DNA of 32,665 bases from a virus. A program made the position numbers and the translations under genes. The stretch's first letter is position 1; each line of letters begins with the position of its first letter. The DNA lies in IMG/VR virus record IMGVR_UViG_3300009537_000092, positions 1-32,665 of that record. One strand, written 5' to 3'. Below the pieces are notes generated by a model. The model saw only the letters and a program-made list of their open reading frames with translations. It was not told the origin of the DNA and searched no databases. Below are positions 1,919 to 14,744 of the stretch, in pieces.

Positions 1919-2317
1919 TTAGAAATCAATATCATCATCTTTAAATTCATCTTCTGCCTTTTCATCAGATTTTTTGAAATCTAAGATAATTGGTCGTTCA
2001 CCATATTTCATATTATTTTCAACTTCAATAAAACAAGGGGCCTTTGAACCAATTAAACTTTCAGTGTTTATTTGGCCTTCTTCTAGTTGATTAAATTTAT
2101 TAATGGCTTTGAAATAATGTTTTGTTTTAAAAAACATTGGGCCCTCTAACATTAACCAGGTTCGGCATTTAATCTTAATTCCTTCTTGGGCTATTTGTCC
2201 ATCAAGCTCTAACATTTGATTACCGGATTGCGATTTTTTGGAAATGGCTTTTTCAGTAATAAAGATAGCACTTCCATCTTGAATTTGAATTGGCATTTTA
2301 AAAGGTATGATAGTCAT
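1919..2317 (-). CDS. DUF669-type, SSB-like single-strand DNA-binding protein (probable)
   Basis: The start is placed at 2317 because AGGAG lies 8 bases upstream; a longer in-frame start at 2389 would run deep into the ATPase gene and lacks a site. The 132-residue product is beta-rich, with the YGERP motif near residue 108 and an acidic tail ending DDDIDF. I place it with DUF669-like phage proteins, which commonly sit next to RecA-like AAA ATPases. The tail closely resembles the DDDIPF tip by which bacterial SSB recruits partners. Together with the adjacent Sak4-like gene this supports a single-strand DNA-binding role in phage recombination. That role is inference; family and context are consistent. 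Confidence 0.6.
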   Translation of the reverse strand: MTIIPFKMPIQIQDGSAIFITEKAISKKSQSGNQMLELDGQIAQEGIKIKCRTWLMLEGPMFFKTKHYFKAINKFNQLEEGQINTESLIGSKAPCFIEVENNMKYGERPIILDFKKSDEKAEDEFKDDDIDF

Positions 2318-2327
2318 TTTGGAGCTC

Positions 2328-3017
2328 CTATTGTTGAATATCTTCATTAAAATAATCGTTAATTGTATCAGAAACAAACTGTAAATCATTTGGTATTTTT
2401 ATATCTTTAAACATATCTATGGGTGATTTTGAATTAAATTTATCCACGGATTTTGTTATAAAGTAATGATTACCGTCCTCTACTATAGAATTTAAAACAA
2501 TTGTAAACATGCCTTCAATTGTAATTTTCTCATCTAGCATTTTACCGATGGTTTTACACTTTGTCTTCCCATACATATCAACGTCAGAATGCGTGAGAAA
2601 ATAAATAATCAGATCAGATCGACAGACGCTCGCTTCATTAATAATCGACCATGAGTTTTTAGCGATTTCGGTAAACTTATCATATCCTCGTTCAATTGCC
2701 CTGCGCATAAATTCATTTGCCATGACATATTGAAAATCATCGATAATAATTTGTTTTACTTCTTTTCGCTCGCTTTCAATTTTTTTTATACAGCTAATGA
2801 TTTTCTCTGATTTATCTGTTGAGTATAGATTACAGATGCTTTTTTTGTTATCTTCTTTTTGGGTAACGACGGGCTCCTTATAAGAATGCCTCCAGCCTTT
2901 AAATGGCAGTGGCTTCCCAAGAACGTTAATAATAAATGTTTCTTTTGGGTTTAAGGTTCTAATAGCTGTAGATTTTCCTGAGCCACTTTCACCAATAATT
3001 AAAACGGGAGTACTCAT
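2328..3017 (-). CDS. Sak4-like RecA-fold recombination ATPase (AAA_24)
   Basis: This 229-residue ATPase has a Walker A GESGSGKST at residues 9-17 and a Walker B IIIDD at 90-94. YFLTHSD at 139-145 sits in a sensor position, and KTIGKMLDEKITIEGMF at 155-171 matches the conserved block of phage Sak4/AAA_24 proteins. Members of this family promote single-strand annealing and recombination together with an SSB, and an SSB-like gene lies immediately downstream. The start at 3017 is chosen over the ATG at 3023 because AGGAG is 8 bases from the former and only 2 from the latter. It is translationally close to the 25-residue gene upstream, whose TGA overlaps the 3023 ATG. Confidence 0.8.
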   Translation of the reverse strand: MSTPVLIIGESGSGKSTAIRTLNPKETFIINVLGKPLPFKGWRHSYKEPVVTQKEDNKKSICNLYSTDKSEKIISCIKKIESERKEVKQIIIDDFQYVMANEFMRRAIERGYDKFTEIAKNSWSIINEASVCRSDLIIYFLTHSDVDMYGKTKCKTIGKMLDEKITIEGMFTIVLNSIVEDGNHYFITKSVDKFNSKSPIDMFKDIKIPNDLQFVSDTINDYFNEDIQQ

Positions 3018-3019
3018 CC

Positions 3020-3097
3020 TCATTTCTCCTGTTGTTGACGATGATTATCATCATCATTTTCTTGTGATAAAAAATCTTCCATATCAGAATGAAACAT
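3020..3097 (-). CDS. 25-residue acidic peptide in the csrA operon
   Basis: A very short reading frame, MFHSDMEDFLSQENDDD followed by a Gln/Arg-rich end, starts 9 bases after a good AGGAG. It begins just after the stop of the 72-residue gene upstream, and its TGA overlaps the start region of the Sak4-like gene. Spacing and Shine-Dalgarno quality argue that it is translated, either as a functional peptide or as a coupling frame for the ATPase. No family is recognisable. Confidence 0.5.
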   Translation of the reverse strand: MFHSDMEDFLSQENDDDNHRQQQEK

Positions 3098-3098
3098 A

Positions 3099-3317
3099 TT
3101 AATAACTCCTTGATTCATTAATACGTCTGTTCATGTCACAATCATAATTTATTTCATTTTCTGTGCGTGAACGATTTTTCTTGAACGCGCGTTCTTGTGC
3201 ACGGTCAAGCTTGTGAAGAAATTTTATTTCTTCTTTTATTTCTTCATCGGTAAGACTAGACATCTTATTATCCATGTATATTTTCGTTTCATTATCAATA
3301 ATTTTAAATAGATCCAT
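3099..3317 (-). CDS. Small charged helical protein downstream of csrA
   Basis: The 72-residue product is highly charged and probably helical, with [21 protein letters not shown] in its centre and an Arg/Asn-rich C-terminus. The start is put at 3317, where AAGGAG lies 7 bases upstream; the ATG at 3323 is too close to the same site. The gene overlaps the end of csrA by 14 bases, so the two are translationally coupled. I do not recognise it. A partner or modulator of CsrA is a possibility based on coupling only. Confidence 0.6.
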
Positions 3318-3498
3318 GTTCATTCTCCTTTTTTAATTCAGCTTGAATGCGTTCATATATTTCAAGTCTATGAACGGCAATTTCTTTTGGGGCTTTAATT
3401 CCTGTTCTTATTTGGCCACATTGATATCCTAAGATGGTTACTTCTATATTGTCACCAATTTTAATAGTTTCACCAACCCGTCTAGATAATATCAGCAT
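3304..3498 (-). CDS. csrA: CsrA/RsmA-family RNA-binding translational regulator
   Basis: The 64-residue protein matches CsrA over its full length: [16 protein letters not shown] at the N-terminus, [16 protein letters not shown] in the middle, and IYERIQAE at the start of the C-terminal helix. The residues known to contact RNA are intact: Leu4 and Arg6 on strand 1 and Arg44 in the V-H-R motif on strand 5. CsrA homodimers bind GGA motifs in mRNA leaders and usually block ribosome access. The gene is first in a six-gene minus-strand operon with a ~100-nt leader whose own Shine-Dalgarno contains GGA, so autoregulation is possible. CsrA genes are usually chromosomal; mobile copies are known, for example on Legionella integrative elements. 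It may rewire host mRNAs or act on the GGA-rich phage leaders described below. Confidence 0.95.
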
Positions 3499-3601: not shown

Positions 3602-3607
3602 GAAACC

Positions 3608-3660
3608 AGTATAGGCGTTAGAATTAAAGCTGTCAACATTTTTATATAAAAAAGTTGACA
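3608..3660 (-). promoter_or_regulatory. csrA operon promoter and 30-bp inverted-repeat operator
   Basis: On the minus strand TTGACA (3636-3631), a 17-bp spacer and TATACT (3613-3608) form a near-consensus sigma70-type promoter, predicting a start near 3601. The -35 box is the left arm of a 30-bp inverted repeat (3631-3660) with the form TGTCAAC-N16-GTTGACA. The right arm abuts the 3' end of the Cro-like gene. The same element, nearly base for base, recurs at 11020-11049, and a diverged version lies at 3927-3956, which suggests a common regulator. Confidence 0.75.
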
Positions 3661-3661
3661 T

Positions 3662-3910
3662 TTATTCGGGATAATTCATATGGGGTCGTAAGTCTTTCAT
3701 TTTTAGTTTTATTTTATTCTTTTTGCAAAAATTAATTAAGCGAATAGCGTTTGCATCAGAGATAGTTTTTGTGCCAGTTTCATCGTTTAAATAGGTATAT
3801 AAAGTTGAATGTGGAATATTAGCATCTTTACCTAATTGAAAAATACTAATTTTAAGTTTATAACAAATTTGTTTTAATAATTTTTTTGGGTTATCTTGAA
3901 TGTTTCTCAT
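3662..3910 (-). CDS. Cro/CI-like helix-turn-helix regulator
   Basis: The 82-residue protein has an HTH-like segment at residues 23-41 (IFQLGKDANIPHSTLYTYL) and ends with KDLRPHM, a C-terminal signature seen in many small Cro-like repressors. It is too short to hold a CI dimerisation or cleavage domain. Its promoter lies in a 37-bp region shared with the divergent nuclease gene and is built from TTGACA/TGTCAA half-sites. It is therefore the best candidate for binding the three operators in this window, including its own. SD AGGAG lies upstream of the ATG. Confidence 0.7.
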   Translation of the reverse strand: MRNIQDNPKKLLKQICYKLKISIFQLGKDANIPHSTLYTYLNDETGTKTISDANAIRLINFCKKNKIKLKMKDLRPHMNYPE

Positions 3911-3926
3911 GATTATAGCTCCTTAT

Positions 3927-3985
3927 TGTCATAAATATTATATAAAAATGTTGACATTGTCAATAATGTCATTTAATTTAATGTC
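3927..3985. promoter_or_regulatory. Overlapping divergent promoters and operator between regulator and nuclease
   Basis: Minus strand: TTGACA (3963-3958), 17 bp, TAATAT (3940-3935) drives the Cro-like gene. Plus strand: TTGACA (3951-3956), 17 bp, TAATTT (3974-3979) predicts a start at about 3986, the A of the nuclease ATG. The two -35 boxes form a palindrome, TTGACATTGTCAA (3951-3963). A diverged copy of the 30-bp element spans 3927-3956, and two more TGTCA half-sites occur at 3967 and 3982. One bound repressor could shut both promoters. Confidence 0.7.
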
Positions 3986-4408
3986 ATGAAACCCATTAAA
4001 CTTAACACAAAGCCTAAACGAAAGCATGAAGAGCAAGACTTGCAGATTTCCGTGGCTCAGTTGTTAGATAGCATTACTATGTTTAGAAACAAATGGTGCC
4101 ATGTTCCGAATGGAGGCGCAAGAGATGCAAAAGAAGGGGCTAGACTTAAGAAAATGGGGGTTAAGAAAGGTGTTCATGATAATCTTATTTTTAAAAATAT
4201 TAAATGGTTAGATACATGTCAATCTTTTTTCGAGCGAAAGTTTTATACAGGTTTAGCGATTGAAATAAAAGTTGGAAAAGGGAAACTAACAAAAGAACAA
4301 TTAGACTGGAAAAAAAGCCTTGAAGAAGAAGGATGGCTTTGCATTCCATGCAAAACAATTGACGAAGTCATGGCATTAATTACGAAATATTACGGGATTA
4401 AATTTTGA
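3986..4408 (+). CDS. VRR-NUC domain nuclease, probably leaderless
   Basis: The 140-residue protein is a stand-alone VRR-NUC domain of the PD-(D/E)XK superfamily. HVPNGG is at residues 39-44, GVHDN at 62-66 (Asp65 as metal ligand), EIK at 93-95 (Glu93, Lys95) and the family glutamine in KEQLDW at 104-109. Phage VRR-NUC proteins are thought to cut branched or recombining DNA. The usual G-V-P-D-L is G-V-H-D-N here, a small deviation next to the ligand. No Shine-Dalgarno lies upstream, and the predicted transcript starts on the ATG, implying leaderless translation. It heads the long plus-strand accessory operon. Confidence 0.85.
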   Translation: MKPIKLNTKPKRKHEEQDLQISVAQLLDSITMFRNKWCHVPNGGARDAKEGARLKKMGVKKGVHDNLIFKNIKWLDTCQSFFERKFYTGLAIEIKVGKGKLTKEQLDWKKSLEEEGWLCIPCKTIDEVMALITKYYGIKF

Positions 4409-4416
4409 GGTGAGTG

Positions 4417-4593
4417 ATGGATGAGGCAAAACGCACATGTAATCAGTGTGGTAGAGAGATGGAATATTCTACTGAGATAGAATGTAAATTAGTTTGCGTC
4501 TGTCATTATCCAGACTGTCCTAATTATGCTCTATTACAAATATCTATGGAAAACATGTCTAAAGGGATTAATGAAGAGGTGAGTGATGGATGA
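4417..4593 (+). CDS. Small zinc-ribbon protein
   Basis: This 58-residue protein starts Met-Asp-Glu within the 19-bp start repeat, 8 bases after the nuclease stop. It carries CNQC at residues 8-11, CVCHYPDC at 27-34 and NYALLQ after that. This looks like a two-knuckle zinc ribbon with one or two spare cysteines. The same C-x(n)-D-C-x-N-(Y/F)-x-L-L ending is seen in the C-terminal domain of the protein at 1469-1906. Its last five codons (EVSDG) lie inside the start repeat of the next gene, with which it overlaps by 8 bases. Function unknown. Confidence 0.65.
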   Translation: MDEAKRTCNQCGREMEYSTEIECKLVCVCHYPDCPNYALLQISMENMSKGINEEVSDG

Positions 4594-4759
4594 GAAATGT
4601 AAGAGTAAGATAGAAGAAAAATATCCGACGGAATTATTGAAAATTACCCCGGATTATGAAATCTATTACAGAAAAAAGTTTTTTAGAAAAGATAAAGAAT
4701 TGGCATTAATGTTGTTAGATGTTGGAAATGCATTAATACGTGATAAAGATAATATGTAA
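4586..4759 (+). CDS. Small hypothetical protein (MDE start)
   Basis: The 57-residue, Lys/Glu-rich product overlaps the zinc-ribbon gene by 8 bases and starts inside the second copy of the 19-bp start repeat. The sequence has a polar N-terminus (MDEKCKSKIEEKY), an aromatic centre (YEIYYRKKFF) and a probable helix at 37-50. No family is recognised. Shine-Dalgarno GAGGTGAG, the overlap and the repeat support translation. Confidence 0.6.
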   Translation: MDEKCKSKIEEKYPTELLKITPDYEIYYRKKFFRKDKELALMLLDVGNALIRDKDNM

Positions 4760-4802
4760 AATAATTGATGAGAATCTTTATTGCCGATAAATGAGGTGAG
4801 GA

Positions 4803-5165
4803 ATGGATGAGAAAACAAAAAGACGAGCAAAATTTGTGTATAATGCAGCGAGGCTTGCCGCAGAAGCAGCCTCTGCTCCGATTATTCCTCTTATTTTTGA
4901 AGAAAGAGAAGAATCTTTTATAGATCAATTTTTAAAAGTCATTGAACGACAATGCGGTGATCAGCGCTCAAAGTCCCCAGAAGAATTGCATGGAAGTTGG
5001 ATGCAAGCATATTTCGCAATGGGATGGGTGTACGGTGAAAAGTATGATCGAGAGAAAAAAACACACCCAGATCTTGTGCCTTATTCGGATCTTGAGCAAC
5101 TTGAACAGGATAAAGATGCTGTGTTTATTGCTTTGTGTGAGATTGCACGTCAATGGATTTATTAA
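4803..5165 (+). CDS. RyR-domain protein
   Basis: Residues 58-115 match the RyR domain, first defined as a repeat in ryanodine receptors and also found in bacterial and phage proteins. The segment includes SPEELHGSW, GWVYGEKYD and THPDLVPYSDL. The first ~45 residues are a helical, Ala-rich N-terminus. Its ligand in phages is unknown. The gene is flanked by 14-base direct repeats differing at one position (4784-4797 and 5177-5190, CCGATAAATGA(G/T)GT), consistent with a mobile cassette. It starts with the third copy of the Met-Asp-Glu start repeat. Confidence 0.8.
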   Translation: MDEKTKRRAKFVYNAARLAAEAASAPIIPLIFEEREESFIDQFLKVIERQCGDQRSKSPEELHGSWMQAYFAMGWVYGEKYDREKKTHPDLVPYSDLEQLEQDKDAVFIALCEIARQWIY

Positions 5166-5212
5166 TTTAATTAATACCGATAAATGATGTTACCGGAGAT
5201 AGGAGTAGGAAT

Positions 5213-5425
5213 ATGTTTAAATGGTTATTTAAGATTTTTAAGAAAAAAAGACCGCTCCTTACATTAAAAAAAGACGCCATTTGGTTTGACGCAAGTGATC
5301 GTCCAACAATGTCATTTCATATAAATGGAAATGTTAGAGAATGGAGGTCAAAAAATGGAGGGCCTCCATTCCGTCAATGGCACGTCTCAGATGCGCCTAA
5401 ACTTGGAAGTGAGATGAAAGAATGA
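5213..5425 (+). CDS. Small hypothetical protein
   Basis: The 70-residue product begins with a basic amphipathic stretch, MFKWLFKIFKKKRP, that could lie on a membrane surface. A Trp- and Gly-rich region follows (WRSKNGGPPFRQWHVSD). It is not recognised. A TTACCGGAGATAGGAG leader precedes it, and it overlaps the next gene by ATGA (5422-5425), so the pair is coupled. The downstream partner is a membrane protein, which fits a membrane location. Confidence 0.55.
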   Translation: MFKWLFKIFKKKRPLLTLKKDAIWFDASDRPTMSFHINGNVREWRSKNGGPPFRQWHVSDAPKLGSEMKE

Positions 5426-5643
5426 AAACTATAGCAATGTTTTTTTTAGGGTATCTTCTAATGTCAATTATATCTTTTGTCATAGCGGATATTATTTTTA
5501 TTGATGAATATAAAAAATATAATTTAAATAAAATTGATTATATGAATTTTCTTTGTGGGGCTGCTTTTTTATGGCCATTATTTTTTTTAGGAATGATTCG
5601 CACTACAATTAAATATCTTTGTATAAAACTAAAAGACAATTAA
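5422..5643 (+). CDS. Small two-helix membrane protein
   Basis: The 73-residue product has hydrophobic helices at about residues 3-23 and 43-64, separated by a charged segment with IDEYKKYNLNK. It starts within the stop of the preceding gene (ATGA), so it is translated by coupling rather than from its own site. No family is recognisable. Small membrane proteins in early accessory regions often alter host envelope or superinfection, but there is no direct evidence here. Confidence 0.55.
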   Translation: MKTIAMFFLGYLLMSIISFVIADIIFIDEYKKYNLNKIDYMNFLCGAAFLWPLFFLGMIRTTIKYLCIKLKDN

Positions 5644-5672
5644 AATGACGTTACCGGAGATAGGAAAGGGAT

Positions 5673-6026
5673 ATGAGTTTGGATTTTGATTTAACTGAAA
5701 AATATATAAAAATTAAACTTTCAGATTTAACATGCGAAGAATATATAGAAACAGTTTATTCAAGAAATATAACTCATAATGTAAATATAATGTGGAAAGA
5801 ATCTGGCTGTTATGAGGCCCTTTATGAAAGTGATGGTAAAAAAGCTGTTGAGATAATACCTATACTAAAAGATGCTATTGAAAAAATGGGTAGTGATCCA
5901 GAAAAATATAAAAAAATGAATGCTCCAAATGGGTGGGGAACCTATGAGAGTGCTTTTAATTTTTTAACAAATGTTTTTAAGGCGTGCTTTGAAAACCCCA
6001 ACTCAATAATTAATATAGACAAATGA
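5673..6026 (+). CDS. Hypothetical protein
   Basis: The 117-residue product has a mixed alpha/beta composition. Its N-terminus is MSLDFDLTEKYIKIKLSDL and it has a Gly/Trp motif, NAPNGWGTYESAFNFL, near residue 86. The sequence from KAVEIIPILKDAIEKM to the Gly-Trp-Gly-Thr-Tyr motif resembles small phage and immunity-type proteins of unknown role, but I cannot name a family. A repeated leader precedes it, and its TGA lies inside the conserved stretch of the next leader. Confidence 0.55.
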   Translation: MSLDFDLTEKYIKIKLSDLTCEEYIETVYSRNITHNVNIMWKESGCYEALYESDGKKAVEIIPILKDAIEKMGSDPEKYKKMNAPNGWGTYESAFNFLTNVFKACFENPNSIINIDK

Positions 6027-6263
6027 CGTTACCGGAGAGACGGAGATAAAACAGTTTTAATAAGAGAAGGAGCAGATCGTAGCGGTAAGCGAGAACAGGA
6101 AAATTTGTGAAGAATTGACCATCAATCAATACATCATGAATGAGTAGAATGTTAAACGGAGTGGCGGGAGACCTGATAAATCAATGTGTCCACACCGAAT
6201 CTTATTAATAAGTTGATTGAATTAAAAGAATACGAATAACTTTACCGGAGATAGGAGAGAGAT
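6027..6263 (+). other. Gene-poor stretch between two leader repeats
   Basis: This 237-base stretch starts with a variant leader (TTACCGGAGAGACGGAG) and ends with a perfect one. It holds no convincing gene. A 22-codon frame at 6140-6208 has no Shine-Dalgarno. A short frame ending ...LKEYE at ~6187-6237 looks like the tail of a lost gene, because its stop sits at the same place in the repeat as the tail of the 45-residue gene downstream. The purine-rich 5' half could be an untranslated RNA. A decayed cassette is the simplest reading. Confidence 0.4.
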
Positions 6264-6401
6264 ATGTTTGATTGGTTTGATATGCACGATAGCTGTGAAA
6301 AAAGACTTGAAGAAATTGAAGAATCGCTTAATGAATTGGAGGAGCGTTATAGTAAAGCAATTGAAGAATCAACTAAAAAAATTAATGACGAAGACGAATA
6401 A
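6264..6401 (+). CDS. 45-residue acidic coiled-coil peptide
   Basis: The product, starting MFDWFDMHD, is a single charged helix with Leu/Ile at heptad positions (RLEEIEESLNELEERY) and an acidic end, NDEDE. A perfect leader repeat supplies AGGAG 7 bases before the ATG. Its last codons and stop belong to the next repeat. The sequence looks like a small coiled-coil oligomer or an inhibitor, but no family is recognisable. Confidence 0.55.
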   Translation: MFDWFDMHDSCEKRLEEIEESLNELEERYSKAIEESTKKINDEDE

Positions 6402-6418
6402 CTTTACCGGAGATAGAA

Positions 6419-6574
6419 ATGAAATTTATTATTAGTATTTGGATATGTGTTTCTTTTGCGTTCATGATGATGTGGGGAATGGGCGGATGGGTTGATTGGG
6501 GTCTTTTCCCGGGCGGCATTTTATTCGGATTTGGAATAGGAGTATTAATTAGTTGGATGGCTAATGAGTTTTAA
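6419..6574 (+). CDS. 51-residue membrane peptide
   Basis: This very hydrophobic peptide has two predicted membrane helices, at about residues 3-21 and 32-48. They are joined by a Gly/Trp turn (GMGGWVDWGLFPGG). The leader here is truncated (ACCGGAGATAG directly before AAATG), so the first GGAG is the likely ribosome site. I do not recognise a family. It could be a holin-like or superinfection-exclusion peptide, by topology only. Confidence 0.5.
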   Translation: MKFIISIWICVSFAFMMMWGMGGWVDWGLFPGGILFGFGIGVLISWMANEF

Positions 6575-6606
6575 TCAAATGATATTACCGGAGATAGGAG
6601 ATAAAT

Positions 6607-6780
6607 ATGACAAGACCAGATTACCCAAATTGTGTAATGACACCTTTAATAATTAGCAGAATTGGTCGCGATCAAGAATTCTACGATGAAGATCCAGACA
6701 GATGGGAGCGCAGACAAGAGGAAGTAGAAGAATTGCGAGCTAGAGAAGAACAAGAAATGAAAGAAGAACAGGAATTTTAG
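6607..6780 (+). CDS. 57-residue charged peptide
   Basis: The N-terminal third is neutral (MTRPDYPNCVMTPLIISRIG). The remainder, from residue 21, is a run of Glu/Arg/Gln that forms one long charged helix. It is preceded by a full leader repeat with AGGAG 7 bases before ATG. The 80 bases after its stop contain no gene, only a remnant CTGACGAAGACAAATAA that matches the ends of other cassettes. No family is recognised. Confidence 0.55.
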   Translation: MTRPDYPNCVMTPLIISRIGRDQEFYDEDPDRWERRQEEVEELRAREEQEMKEEQEF

Positions 6781-6860
6781 ATGATAACGGTTTAGGTTTC
6801 TAGACAACTAATTGTTTATCTGACGAAGACAAATAATTTTACCGGAGATAGGAGATAAAT

Positions 6861-7190
6861 ATGTTTAATCAATTAAAAAGAGCAAATAAGAATGATCAGC
6901 TTCAAGAACAGCAGCGTAGATATGATGATCTGGTGGATAGAGTCATATTATTAAGTGATCGATATTTTCATGAGCACGGTCGAAAACCAACTGATGTCTA
7001 TTTACGCTTAGACGATCTTAAGTTTGTCAGAAACTTTCATGAGATAAGGCGAGTCATTCATGGGCTGTCATCATCTCAGCTGAATAAGCTTGCTGGACTC
7101 GAACTTAATGTAGGTGAGCAAATGGTAGTCGAATCTAAAGAAACCAATAAATATAATTGGCGTATTTTTATGAGACGAAGTAGTTTTTAA
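6861..7190 (+). CDS. Hypothetical protein, charged and helical
   Basis: The 109-residue product starts with a strongly charged helix (QLKRANKNDQLQEQQRRYDDLVDRV). A compact region follows (FHEHGRKPTDVYLRLDDLKFV) and the end is MRRSSF. It is not recognised. It carries the last perfect leader of the array. The mixture of a charged helix and a structured C-terminus suggests an oligomeric or nucleic-acid-associated protein, but this is weak. Confidence 0.55.
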   Translation: MFNQLKRANKNDQLQEQQRRYDDLVDRVILLSDRYFHEHGRKPTDVYLRLDDLKFVRNFHEIRRVIHGLSSSQLNKLAGLELNVGEQMVVESKETNKYNWRIFMRRSSF

Positions 7191-7215: not shown

Positions 7216-7587
7216 ATGGAAGAAGACGATTTCGAATATCCTCTTAATCATTATGATAAAGAAGAGGAGCAATGGCTTGGAAAAGATCTATTTGATTTAG
7301 AAGACATCGCTGATTGTCCTGAGGAATTACAAAATGATATTAGGCCTATTCGAACTTATAAAGAAAACACACAATACAAGCAGGTGTATGAGCTTTTCTT
7401 AAAGAAAGACACATTAACCTTAGATGAAATCCAGGTAGGGCTATGGCGAAAATTTAAGCTTTATTTAAAACGACCTGTCATTGTAGGCTCAATCCAAATT
7501 CTAAAGCGAGACAAAGGATTAATTAGAGGCATAAGAAATGGCGTTTATCGTAGAAATGGTGCAAAGATGGGGAAATTTAGATCATGA
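7216..7587 (+). CDS. Hypothetical protein with possible winged-helix domain
   Basis: The 123-residue product has an acidic first third. Residues 55-115 could fold as a winged helix: QVYELFLKKDTLTLDEIQVGLWRKF, then KRPVIVGSIQILKRDKGLIRGIRNGVYRR. The pattern 'helix, LTLDEI, helix, SIQILKRDKGLI, G-x-Y-R' resembles DNA-binding domains of small phage regulators. It has no leader repeat, and its TGA overlaps the next gene's ATG (7584-7587). Function is inferred weakly. Confidence 0.5.
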   Translation: MEEDDFEYPLNHYDKEEEQWLGKDLFDLEDIADCPEELQNDIRPIRTYKENTQYKQVYELFLKKDTLTLDEIQVGLWRKFKLYLKRPVIVGSIQILKRDKGLIRGIRNGVYRRNGAKMGKFRS

Positions 7588-7898
7588 AAAATAAGATAAA
7601 GATAAAATGTCAATCAATTCCTTCAATTGTTATGCCGGCTATTTTGGTATCAATTTTTGTTTTAGGGATGTTTTTAATATGTTTGTTTGTGGTATTGACG
7701 CGAAATACATCTGAACTATTCAAGATTTTTATATCAACCTCTTGGGCACTTACATTCTTACTTCAATACAAGTCATGGAAGATTGTCATTGAAATGATTA
7801 AGTCTGAGCTATCGTTTAGAAAATATGCAACTAAACAACTTAGCGAGTTCACAGAAGAAATTCAAAAAATTATTGACATGTTGAAAAGCATAGAATAA
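7584..7898 (+). CDS. Two-helix membrane protein with cytoplasmic coiled tail
   Basis: The 104-residue product has a basic N-terminus (MKNKIKIKCQ), membrane helices at about residues 12-38 and 47-62, and a charged helical C-terminus (KQLSEFTEEIQKIIDMLKSIE). It is translationally coupled to the gene before it by ATGA. A strong terminator begins 59 bases after its stop, so it closes the rightward accessory operon. No family is recognised. Confidence 0.55.
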   Translation: MKNKIKIKCQSIPSIVMPAILVSIFVLGMFLICLFVVLTRNTSELFKIFISTSWALTFLLQYKSWKIVIEMIKSELSFRKYATKQLSEFTEEIQKIIDMLKSIE

Positions 7899-7956: not shown

Positions 7957-7985
7957 AAAGGCCGATAGAAATATTGGCCTTTTTT
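7957..7985 (+). terminator. Strong intrinsic terminator
   Basis: AAAGGCCGATA (7957-7967) pairs with TATTGGCCTTT (7972-7982) in an 11-bp stem with one G-U pair and a GAAA tetraloop. It runs straight into TTTTTT. It ends the plus-strand accessory operon just before the convergent regulator/membrane-peptide pair. This is a textbook rho-independent terminator. Confidence 0.9.
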
Positions 7986-7993
7986 AATGAAGG

Positions 7994-9422: not shown

Positions 9423-9500
9423 ATTTAGTGTGTTATTTACGGTTCGTATTATCGGAGATAAGTGATGAATATTTAACCAGGTTATCTTTTAAGATTATAA

Positions 9501-10772: not shown

Positions 10773-10937
10773 TTATGACTTTTCTTGATTACGTTTAGCT
10801 ATCTGACGTTGTAATTTTTGCCAAACTCCTAAGTCGCTGCTAGGATCGGCATAGTGTAAATAATGGTCAAATAACGCAGGGCCATATTTTGTGATATCTC
10901 TCTCTAACTTCGATTGTCTTTTAGTGTTTCTGTTCAT
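10773..10937 (-). CDS. 54-residue protein, first gene of the leftward operon
   Basis: The product, starting MNRNTKRQSKLERDITKYGP, is basic and ends QKLQRQIAKRNQEKS. The centre holds an aromatic patch (FDHYLHYADPSSDLGVW). AGGAG lies 8 bases before the ATG. It is the first gene after the divergent promoter at 10998-11025 and therefore the leading gene of the five following minus-strand genes. The family is unknown. Confidence 0.55.
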   Translation of the reverse strand: MNRNTKRQSKLERDITKYGPALFDHYLHYADPSSDLGVWQKLQRQIAKRNQEKS

Positions 10938-10997: not shown

Positions 10998-11071
10998 ACT
11001 ATAGCACTCTTTTATGGGTTGTCAACAATTTAATATAAAAAAGTTGACATACATATATAAATAGATAATAT
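10998..11071. promoter_or_regulatory. Back-to-back promoters on a 30-bp operator (copy 3)
   Basis: The inverted repeat TGTCAAC-N16-GTTGACA occupies 11020-11049 and is nearly identical to the copy at 3631-3660. The left arm is the -35 of a minus-strand promoter (TTGACA, 16 bp, TATAGT at 11003-10998) for the 9536-10937 operon. The right arm is the -35 of a plus-strand promoter (TTGACA 11044-11049, 16 bp, TAATAT 11066-11071) for 11098-11590. A bound repressor would cover both -35 boxes. Confidence 0.75.
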
Positions 11072-11731: not shown

Positions 11732-11777
11732 ATTAACTACATATCGATCTCTTCTTATACGCAAGATATGAAAGCCT

Positions 11778-11812
11778 TATTATCGGAGATAAAAAAAATT
11801 ATCGGAGATAGG
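11778..11812 (+). repeat. Two tandem leader units upstream of the terminase gene
   Basis: TTATTATCGGAGATAAAA (from 11778) and TTATCGGAGATAGG (11799-11812) are two copies of the leader unit with T in place of the second C. No ATG follows within 60 bases, so they do not serve directly as ribosome sites here. They may be an untranslated regulatory leader or remnants of a cassette. Confidence 0.6.
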
Positions 11813-11874
11813 TATACTTTTAAATCAAATAAGAATAAACTATCAAAAATAGATGTTTAAAAAAGATACAACAT

Positions 11875-12441
11875 ATGGCAATGCCAAAGATTCAACTTAC
11901 AGACGAGCTCATTGAAAAGATATGTTCATATGTTGAACAAGGAAACCCTTTCGATTATGCTTTTATCTTAAGTGGTATCTGTAAAGCAAGCGGTTATGAA
12001 TTGCGCAGAGCTGGTACCAATGATAAAACTTGCTCAACTCAAGAATATAAACTTTGGTCAGGGATGAATGAGGCCAAGGCTAAATATTGTTCACGTCTTG
12101 TTGCTCGCATGTCACGTCTTATTGATCTTGATGATGATAAAGTCGACTGGAAATCAGTTATGACGATGCTCGAGCGTCGCGATCCAGGCAACTATCGTCG
12201 TGATGGTGCGCGTCATGAGAATGACGCCCCTGTTATTGAAGCTGATGATAATTGCGATAATCTTGTTTCACAAATGGCTAAGCTATTGCAGCAAGTCAAT
12301 AACAAAGAATTAGATTCCGATGAAGCTTGTAAGCGCGCTGAACTTCTTACTAAAGCAACCCACGTTAAAGATGGCGGCGACACGCGACATGCTGTTGAAG
12401 ATATCAAAGACTTTATAAGCGAGTTAGATAGCAAAAAGTGA
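11875..12441 (+). CDS. Terminase small subunit (probable)
   Basis: The 188-residue product begins QLTDELIEKICSYVEQGNPFDYAFILSGI. This matches the DNA-binding N-terminus of phage small terminases ('I-x-x-x-V-x-x-G-x-x-x-x-x-A-x-x-x-G-I'). A helical centre (KAKYCSRLVARMSRLIDLDDDKVDWKSVMTMLERRDPGNYRR) follows, in which W-x-x-x-x-x-x-L-E-R-R-x-P-x-x-Y is typical of the family. The acidic C-terminus may contact the large subunit or portal. The large subunit gene is not next door, which is unusual. The Shine-Dalgarno is poor. It is the first virion-module gene. Confidence 0.75.
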   Translation: MAMPKIQLTDELIEKICSYVEQGNPFDYAFILSGICKASGYELRRAGTNDKTCSTQEYKLWSGMNEAKAKYCSRLVARMSRLIDLDDDKVDWKSVMTMLERRDPGNYRRDGARHENDAPVIEADDNCDNLVSQMAKLLQQVNNKELDSDEACKRAELLTKATHVKDGGDTRHAVEDIKDFISELDSKK

Positions 12442-13175: not shown

Positions 13176-14744
13176 ATGGCCGCAGCCGATGAAAAGATTA
13201 GTGCGTTATCTACGAGCGCCGCATTTGATGGAACAGAGCTTTTTGCATTAGTAGATGTATCAGGAGCGCCATATGTTACAAAGAAAAACACTACGACGGC
13301 TATGGGTACATTTGTCGTTGAAGTTCAAACGTTTTCTGGTCTATCGACTACTGATAAAACAATCCAAGGTGCGATCAATGAAGTTTATGCAAGCATAGTG
13401 ACTGAAAGTCTGTGGGATCGTAATGCGGGATCTGGGTTTTTATATCCTCAAACCGCTGGCGACGATTTAAATATGCTTGATGGCACTATTTTTTCAATTG
13501 ATCCTGCCATGCCAGTTACCAAAAAAAGTTATCAAATCTCACAAACTGTTACGGGTGTTGCCCCAGGGTTTGAAAATGCACGAATTGATTTGTATGGTTT
13601 ATATTCTGGTGGTGAACGTGTTGTATATAGTTATGCAGGTGCGTCTAATTCTCATAATTGGACGGGACAAGATTATACTTATGACAATAATACGGGAACT
13701 GTTTCACAGCATATTTATAAGACAGAACTTAATACTGTGGATGGTACAGGCATTATATTACAAGAATTTTTCGGCTTAAATGATGCTTCGCCCACCCCAG
13801 CAGATTATCAATATACACAAATTGGTCATATTATTAAGACTAATACCGAAGGTTCTGAGGATGCAGCAATGGCACTTTCAGTATCAGAAGCTGGTTCTAT
13901 GACTGAGTATATGCGTTTAGATGGTAAGAATATTAAAATAACTACTGCTAAGCCTGTAGATCTAGCAAATAATTCAATTGCTGTTACACAATCTGTTGCA
14001 GATAATTCGACAAAGGTTGCGACAACAGCCTATGTTCAAAATGAATTAAATGCAAATATTCCTGCTGCTCAAGAAGAAATATTAACGATTTCTGGGGATG
14101 GTCAAACTGCATTTACATTAGCGGGAACGCCAAATTCAGATGCTGATTTTACATTGTATCTAAATGGTCAACTTCGAACATTAACGGCAGATTACACGAG
14201 ATCTGGTACTTCATTGACATGGGGTGACCCAGGTGGTTTGACTTTAAAAACAACCGATGAATTAAAGGCTCGTTATAATGCAGTTTCATCAGGCATTGAA
14301 AGTCCGACTGAACTTAATTATGTTCAGGCCTATGATGATACATTACAGGCTATTTCGGTTGGGGCAACGCCGCAAGATGTTCTTTTCTCGACAAATGTAC
14401 AACTAAATGGATGGACGCATACCGCAGGAACAGCCAATTTTACTTGTAATGCGACAGGAAAATATTTAGTTACCTACGCGGTTTATTTTGAGAAAACAGC
14501 GGGCGCTCCATCTCAAATGGAAGCATGGGTTAATTTTAATGGCTCTCAAGTGAGTGATACACACGCTTCAGTTTCTACCATTACAAATAATGTTATTCAG
14601 GAAATGGGCGCGTCATCAATTATATCTGCAACGGTATCTCAGGTATTAAAAATTGAAATTCAGGCCCCCAATACATTCTTTCAATTAAATCAGCATACGT
14701 TACCGGAACCTACTGCAAGAATTACAATCGTGAGGATTAGCTAA
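13176..14744 (+). CDS. Tail fibre/adhesin with C-terminal C1q/TNF-like domain
   Basis: The 522-residue protein starts with an 'EKISALSTSAAFDGTELFALVD' adaptor-like segment. TIQGAINEVYASI follows at about residue 64. In the middle is TQSVADNSTKVATTAYVQNEL, a motif common in phage fibres. A short domain, FTLYLNGQLRTLTADYTRSG, comes after it. From about residue 390 the end looks like a C1q/TNF-type jelly roll (WTHTAGTANFTCNATGKYLVTYAVYF... to the C-terminus), a receptor-contact fold in many fibres. AGGAGAT precedes the start. It overlaps the next gene by TAATG. Trimerisation and host-surface binding are inferred from the family. Confidence 0.7.
   Translation: MAAADEKISALSTSAAFDGTELFALVDVSGAPYVTKKNTTTAMGTFVVEVQTFSGLSTTDKTIQGAINEVYASIVTESLWDRNAGSGFLYPQTAGDDLNMLDGTIFSIDPAMPVTKKSYQISQTVTGVAPGFENARIDLYGLYSGGERVVYSYAGASNSHNWTGQDYTYDNNTGTVSQHIYKTELNTVDGTGIILQEFFGLNDASPTPADYQYTQIGHIIKTNTEGSEDAAMALSVSEAGSMTEYMRLDGKNIKITTAKPVDLANNSIAVTQSVADNSTKVATTAYVQNELNANIPAAQEEILTISGDGQTAFTLAGTPNSDADFTLYLNGQLRTLTADYTRSGTSLTWGDPGGLTLKTTDELKARYNAVSSGIESPTELNYVQAYDDTLQAISVGATPQDVLFSTNVQLNGWTHTAGTANFTCNATGKYLVTYAVYFEKTAGAPSQMEAWVNFNGSQVSDTHASVSTITNNVIQEMGASSIISATVSQVLKIEIQAPNTFFQLNQHTLPEPTARITIVRIS

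Follow-up and report, generated by a model that had tools for sequence, protein, structure and literature searches.

A private array of SAS-like start leaders before the small genes of a Sak4-encoding phage

A short repeat, TTACCGGAGATAG, occurs six times within positions 5190–6851 of a linear IMG/VR virus record of 32,665 bases, which is referred to here as the window and is covered by it in full; one more, damaged copy is located at 6029. The six array copies occupy the ribosome-binding position, a few bases from ATG, of ORFs of 45–117 codons. We consider it probable that this repeat is an SAS-like, start-associated translation-initiation junction, which was carried along as small genes were duplicated and exchanged. 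The array is classed here as a start junction of the SAS-like type, private to this Sak4-encoding phage, with the formal features of SAS elements and a sequence that is not SAS.

Genome setting

The window has a G+C content of 35% and represents a podovirus-like phage with genes for a small terminase (phrog_4102), a head-tail adaptor (phrog_332), and a tail tube protein B (phrog_376). The block of terminase and structural genes starts at 11875, and the final ORF continues past the end of the record. The virion proteins share at most about 30% identity with proteins of named phages. No relatives were found with the head-tail adaptor or a 522-aa protein as query, while the tail tube protein retrieved distant phages only, all of them devoid of the leader. 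The 522-aa protein (13176–14744) contains a BclA C-terminal (collagen-like glycoprotein) domain and had no match among phage records.

The leftward early genes include sak4, csrA, and an SSB-like gene. The first of these (2328–3023, minus strand; phrog_2872, 9e-78) encodes a Sak4-like ssDNA annealing recombinase. The adjoining gene (1919–2389, minus strand) encodes a protein with the acidic tail ...FKDDDIDF which, judged by its translation and by the neighbour rule (PMC5928155), looks like the cognate SSB partner of Sak4. The Sak4 protein of phage HK620 anneals strands diverged by up to 20% and is aided by the neighbouring SSB (PMC5928155). The presence of a phage CsrA, as proposed in the earlier note, was verified: csrA (3304–3498, minus strand; Pfam 1e-22, NCBIfam 1e-26) retains the RNA-binding residues L4 and R44.

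The rightward genes between 3986 and 7898 are small and tightly packed. A strong intrinsic terminator-like hairpin with a T run (7958–7986, plus strand; z −5.2) lies 3' of the ORF 7584–7898 and is the probable end of the rightward operon. The AT-rich gaps between divergent operons (3607–3660, 3926–3963, and 10998–11071) contain TTGACA/TGTCAA sites facing each other, some of which score 10–11 of 12 as promoters. The HTH protein encoded at 3662–3910 (minus strand) could be the binder of these sites.

Structure and conservation of the leader array

All copies of the array are located on the plus strand. Copy 1 (5180–5205, with the core TTACCGGAGATAGGAG at 5190 and a vestigial TGA at 5185–5187) precedes the ORF 5213–5425 (70 aa); copy 2 (5641–5666, core at 5651) precedes the ORF 5673–6026 (117 aa); copy 4 (6232–6257, core at 6242) precedes the ORF 6264–6401 (45 aa); copy 5 (6394–6419, core at 6404) precedes the ORF 6419–6574 (51 aa); copy 6 (6575–6600, core at 6585) precedes the ORF 6607–6780 (57 aa); and copy 7 (6829–6854, core at 6839) precedes the ORF 6861–7190 (109 aa). 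The damaged copy 3 (6019–6044, core at 6029) is followed by a stretch that holds no ORF of at least 40 aa. The count of at least seven small genes or gaps preceded by the leader, as given in the earlier note, thus stands. The small-gene array behind the leaders extends over 5213–7190 (starts at 5213, 5422, 5673, 6264, 6419, 6607, and 6861). The product of 5673–6026 belongs to phrog_4019, and no two proteins of the array are detectably related.

The search for the 16-mer TTACCGGAGATAGGAG with up to three mismatches gave eight matches, all on the plus strand (5190, 5651, 6242, 6404, 6585, 6839, 9449, and 11799). The chance expectation is 0.06, and none of 100 shuffles reached eight. The 12-mer TTAYCGGAGATA also matches at 11780 and, with one mismatch, at 6029 and 106. 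An Rfam search gave no match.

The alignment of the seven array copies corresponds roughly to GAYRAATRAYNTTACCGGAGATAGGAG. Columns −7 to +14 are invariant or conserved in six of seven copies, except for −4, −2, and −1. An upstream stop, AATRA, is present in all seven copies, with TRA (TGA or TAA) at −5 to −3, and it serves as the in-frame stop of the upstream ORF in only two of them: the TGA of the 6029 copy terminates the ORF 5673–6026, and the TAA of the 6404 copy terminates the ORF 6264–6401. Since this stop codon is conserved as well, the conservation of the leader exceeds a Shine–Dalgarno (SD) sequence. Some pairs of copies are alike over 45–55 nt, from the upstream gene end through the start into the first codons ATGTTTRAT; homology of the flanks outside the −10 to +15 element is limited to weak pairs. 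The second GGA is lost in the 6404 copy, so that the first GGAG must act as the SD there. The leader also bears some resemblance to the leader of T7 gene 10 (AAATAATTTT...GGAGATA).

The predicted anti-SD pairing of the array has a median of −7.0 kcal/mol, which is ordinary among the starts of the window (p 0.70 vs other starts), and SD strength therefore leaves the fixed TTACCGG unexplained. Array starts did not differ from other starts in SD strength or accessibility. The invariant stop, the fixed TTACC, and the ordinary anti-SD pairing bear out the earlier suggestion that the leader is conserved beyond the SD.

Copies outside the array and other shared leaders

Three TTATCGGAGATA relatives of the leader, at 9449, 11780, and 11799, had also been listed in the earlier note, and all of them were recovered. 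The copy at 9449–9464 (plus strand), TTATCGGAGATAAGTG, stands before a three-codon ORF, ATG-AAT-ATT-TAA, and is probably a relic. The pair at 11780 and 11799 (11780–11811, plus strand) is located about 60–95 bases before terS and has no start codon behind it. The earlier statement that no clear hairpin surrounds the GGAs is valid for the array leaders. The 11780/11799 pair is able to form a single hairpin, with a z of −3.0 when 71 nt are folded but of only −1.7 for 53 nt. In the fold of 11765–11826, a long hairpin, two GGAs are opposed in an internal loop. As DNA, both copies are 5+3+5 dyads, 19 bp apart. In a scan of the whole window, no leader copy with up to one mismatch was found after 11811, i.e. 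the leader is confined to the non-structural region.

A second leader family, GAGGTGAGTGATGGATGAG, is present in three copies on the plus strand: 4407–4428 (start ATG at 4417), 4576–4597 (ATG at 4586), and 4793–4814 (ATG at 4803). The gene behind the third copy (4803–5165) encodes a small RyR-domain protein (Pfam 1e-10). The nearest relative of the phage, L102, carries this second family, as TGAGCGATGGATGAGAA and its variants, in front of five starts in a row. The L102 proteins behind these leaders are related neither to each other nor to those of the window, and the fifth is an 11-codon remnant. One more shared leader, AAGGAGATTTAATCATGAA, occurs before the gene starting at 10937 (minus strand) in the window and before two genes in L102, the proteins again being unrelated; its positions in the nearest relative are listed as L185 2276 and 2620.

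Private arrays in related phages

In a scan of the phage and of its relatives, as advised in the earlier note, copies recurred within the window, whereas the exact leader yielded only chance matches elsewhere. These matches were located inside unrelated ORFs of IMG/VR (16-mer and 20-mer) and GTDB genomes (22-base pattern), and a blastn search of phages with the 42-nt leader consensus also returned chance matches only. With Sak4 as query, phages sharing early genes with the window were identified, the nearest of which, L102, has eight proteins in common with it. Several of these phages possess private leader arrays with sequences of their own: TAGGAGATCGTT in L104/L106, TGGAGACTAAATAATG in L107, AGGAGAACAACAATG in L111, AAAAATTGGAGA in L117/L118 (eight or nine copies), and GGAGAATAGAAG in L125. 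By a fixed criterion, arrays were detected in 8 of 166 loci, including the window, as compared to none of 498 shuffled controls; since L104/L106 and L117/L118 are near-duplicates, the independent cases number about six. Scans with the second leader family and with the L117 leader revealed no further clear relatives; one of these scans added four new single matches.

Gene turnover at leaders in sister phages

L117 and L118 share a block of 10.9 kb with 94% identity. Upstream of it, 127 bp match at 100%; the match runs through the leader, ends two bases past ATG (ATGAA), and is followed by different genes in the two phages. In L118, the leader together with a 112-aa gene is present twice, and one of the copies is 86% identical to the L117 gene. 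L117 contains another pair of related genes, each with its own leader. Between L125 and L116, whose identity is about 95%, the differences comprise whole genes starting at leaders. The differences within both phage pairs indicate that small genes were gained, lost, and duplicated along with their start leaders. No other case is as strong as the junction through the leader in L117/L118. In any compact operon, breakpoints are expected between genes, since genes that were broken do not persist, and the position of a breakpoint is by itself no proof of leader-mediated recombination. An alanine-rich gene recurs several times in L117/L118 (L117 4444–5001 and 12239–13814).

Since no relative with the exact leader was found, exchange at leaders is seen in the relatives only, and a similar history of gene swapping is presumed for the window's own array. 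The proposed junction would consist of the remains of an upstream gene end with its stop codon, the fixed TTACCGG, the SD, and the start codon, and would recur before unrelated tiny genes of what appears to be a single operon. The leaders would function in translation, each of them recruiting ribosomes separately for its own gene. They may have multiplied because small genes were duplicated, inserted, and exchanged together with them. Identical leaders would provide short stretches of homology, where a gene could be newly inserted without loss of its translation signal, and recombination through the leaders may have occurred in the window phage as well. The Sak4/SSB annealing pair would plausibly assist recombination between leaders. 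The fixed TTACC may be maintained because it is functional or because the copies were homogenised repeatedly.

We also propose, quite tentatively, that in many phages the accessory operons are built from interchangeable start cassettes, a lineage-private leader combining the ribosome signal with a short homology for a Sak4-type annealase. If this is true, small genes are added or removed ready for translation. The question addressed is how phages gain tiny orphan genes, many of which are thought to serve host takeover or anti-defence, while their operons remain intact. Phage-specific start junctions at the sites of gene gain and loss would offer a simple, testable answer and would allow islands of accessory genes to be detected from sequence alone.

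Comparison with known systems

The SAS elements of cluster K mycobacteriophages, GGGATAGGAGCCC, are short asymmetric repeats with AGGAG before the starts of non-structural genes; they are conserved beyond SD pairing, rare outside this group, and sometimes overlap the upstream stop (PMC3203893). The TTACCGGAGATAGGAG-type leader is likewise a short repeat in one orientation directly 5' of several starts. It shares with SAS the location a few bases before starts, the conservation beyond rRNA pairing, the restriction to the non-structural region, and the segment GATAGGAG. On inspection, this segment was the only common part, and the aligned copies do not come within two mismatches of the SAS consensus. 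Whereas SAS measures 13 bp, the leader spans about 26 bp, includes a stop codon, and belongs to an unrelated phage. It is also unaccompanied by an ESAS inverted repeat or a promoter, and its copies stand close together in front of successive small genes. One and the same motif across related phages, a trait of SAS, was not observed here, as the relatives carry other motifs. In Microbacterium cluster EF phages, an SAS-like motif, GGGAAAGGACCCC, occupies RBS positions in ten copies (PMC7302621). Its position resembles that of the leader; the sequence is independent, the phages are actinobacterial, and the motif is linked there to an extended motif of weak conservation. The role of SAS is still called ill-defined (PMC11373665). 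SAS elements were described in 2011, and arrays in unrelated annealase phages would offer a second system for testing their function.

The closest parallel for gene shuffling is provided by the PeSL cassettes of T4-type phages (Arbiol 2010; Comeau 2014) which, as cited in PMC4503421, lie between small genes and mediate gene shuffling. Both systems are repeated regulatory cassettes between small genes; PeSLs comprise a promoter and a stem-loop, in contrast to the translation-initiation segment found here, which has neither a promoter nor a hairpin.

Alternative explanations

The leader could be a site bound or cut by another factor, such as a phage translational repressor, a GGAG-cutting RegB-like nuclease, or a small RNA, with TTACCGG as the recognition sequence. 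This would agree with the two GGAGs found in four of the six gene-preceding leaders and with the fact that the fixed bases upstream of the SD add nothing to SD pairing, an argument also made for SAS (PMC3203893). We regard it as unlikely, given that no RegB or repressor annotation occurs among the scanned proteins and that the fixed bases differ in sequence in each relative. It is rather improbable, too, that the array is only a by-product of recent tandem duplication, which left identical leaders under no selection beyond the SD. The likeness does extend to the flanking codons and the vestigial stop, and one copy (6029) is damaged, but the 13-mer is identical in six copies whose gene bodies are unrecognisable as duplicates, which calls for constraint or repeated homogenisation. 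A DNA element, i.e. a promoter or operator, is very improbable. Although TTATCGGAGATAA is a 5+3+5 dyad, perfect at 9449 and 11780, and the 11780/11799 pair has a spacing of 19 bp upstream of terS, the dyad is broken in the array copies, which keep a near-constant distance to start codons, and promoter-like sites in the region (55) do not exceed the number expected by chance (45.5, sd 6.8).

The earlier note had suggested a post-transcriptional CsrA regulon. In such a regulon, phage or host CsrA would bind the GGA pair over the SD and jointly repress or time the translation of the small genes. A plausible CsrA is indeed encoded 1.7 kb from the array, and the array leaders average 2.2 GGAs as compared to about 0.9 elsewhere. 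The preferred target of CsrA is ANGGA within a hairpin loop, and the sites it bridges are separated by 10–63 nt (PMC7652899). As with CsrA/RsmA sites over the SD, the GGA motifs are located at the RBS, but the ANGGA core, the hairpin, and a bridgeable spacing are missing. Among the 13 leader GGAs, A at −2 is present in only one, whereas 16 of the 34 GGAs at other starts have it (Fisher p 0.017). The GGAs are 8 nt apart from start to start, below the bridging minimum of 10 nt (PMC7652899), in agreement with the earlier remark that they are too close. The array leaders form no hairpin loops (z −0.9 to +0.7), and the second GGA is absent from the 6404 copy. Arrays in the Sak4 relatives occur with or without csrA (association p 1.0): csrA was found in 3 of 20 tested records, a small sample, and an array in only one of these three. 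It is thus improbable that the phage's own CsrA operates the leader array as a switch, and we assign a low probability to the regulon as a whole.

At leftward starts, for example those at 3498 and 10937 (both minus strand), nine of ten GGAs have A at −2, mostly as AAGGA. It is quite possible that the phage CsrA has a role away from the array, and these leftward starts would be the better candidates if it has targets in its own genome.
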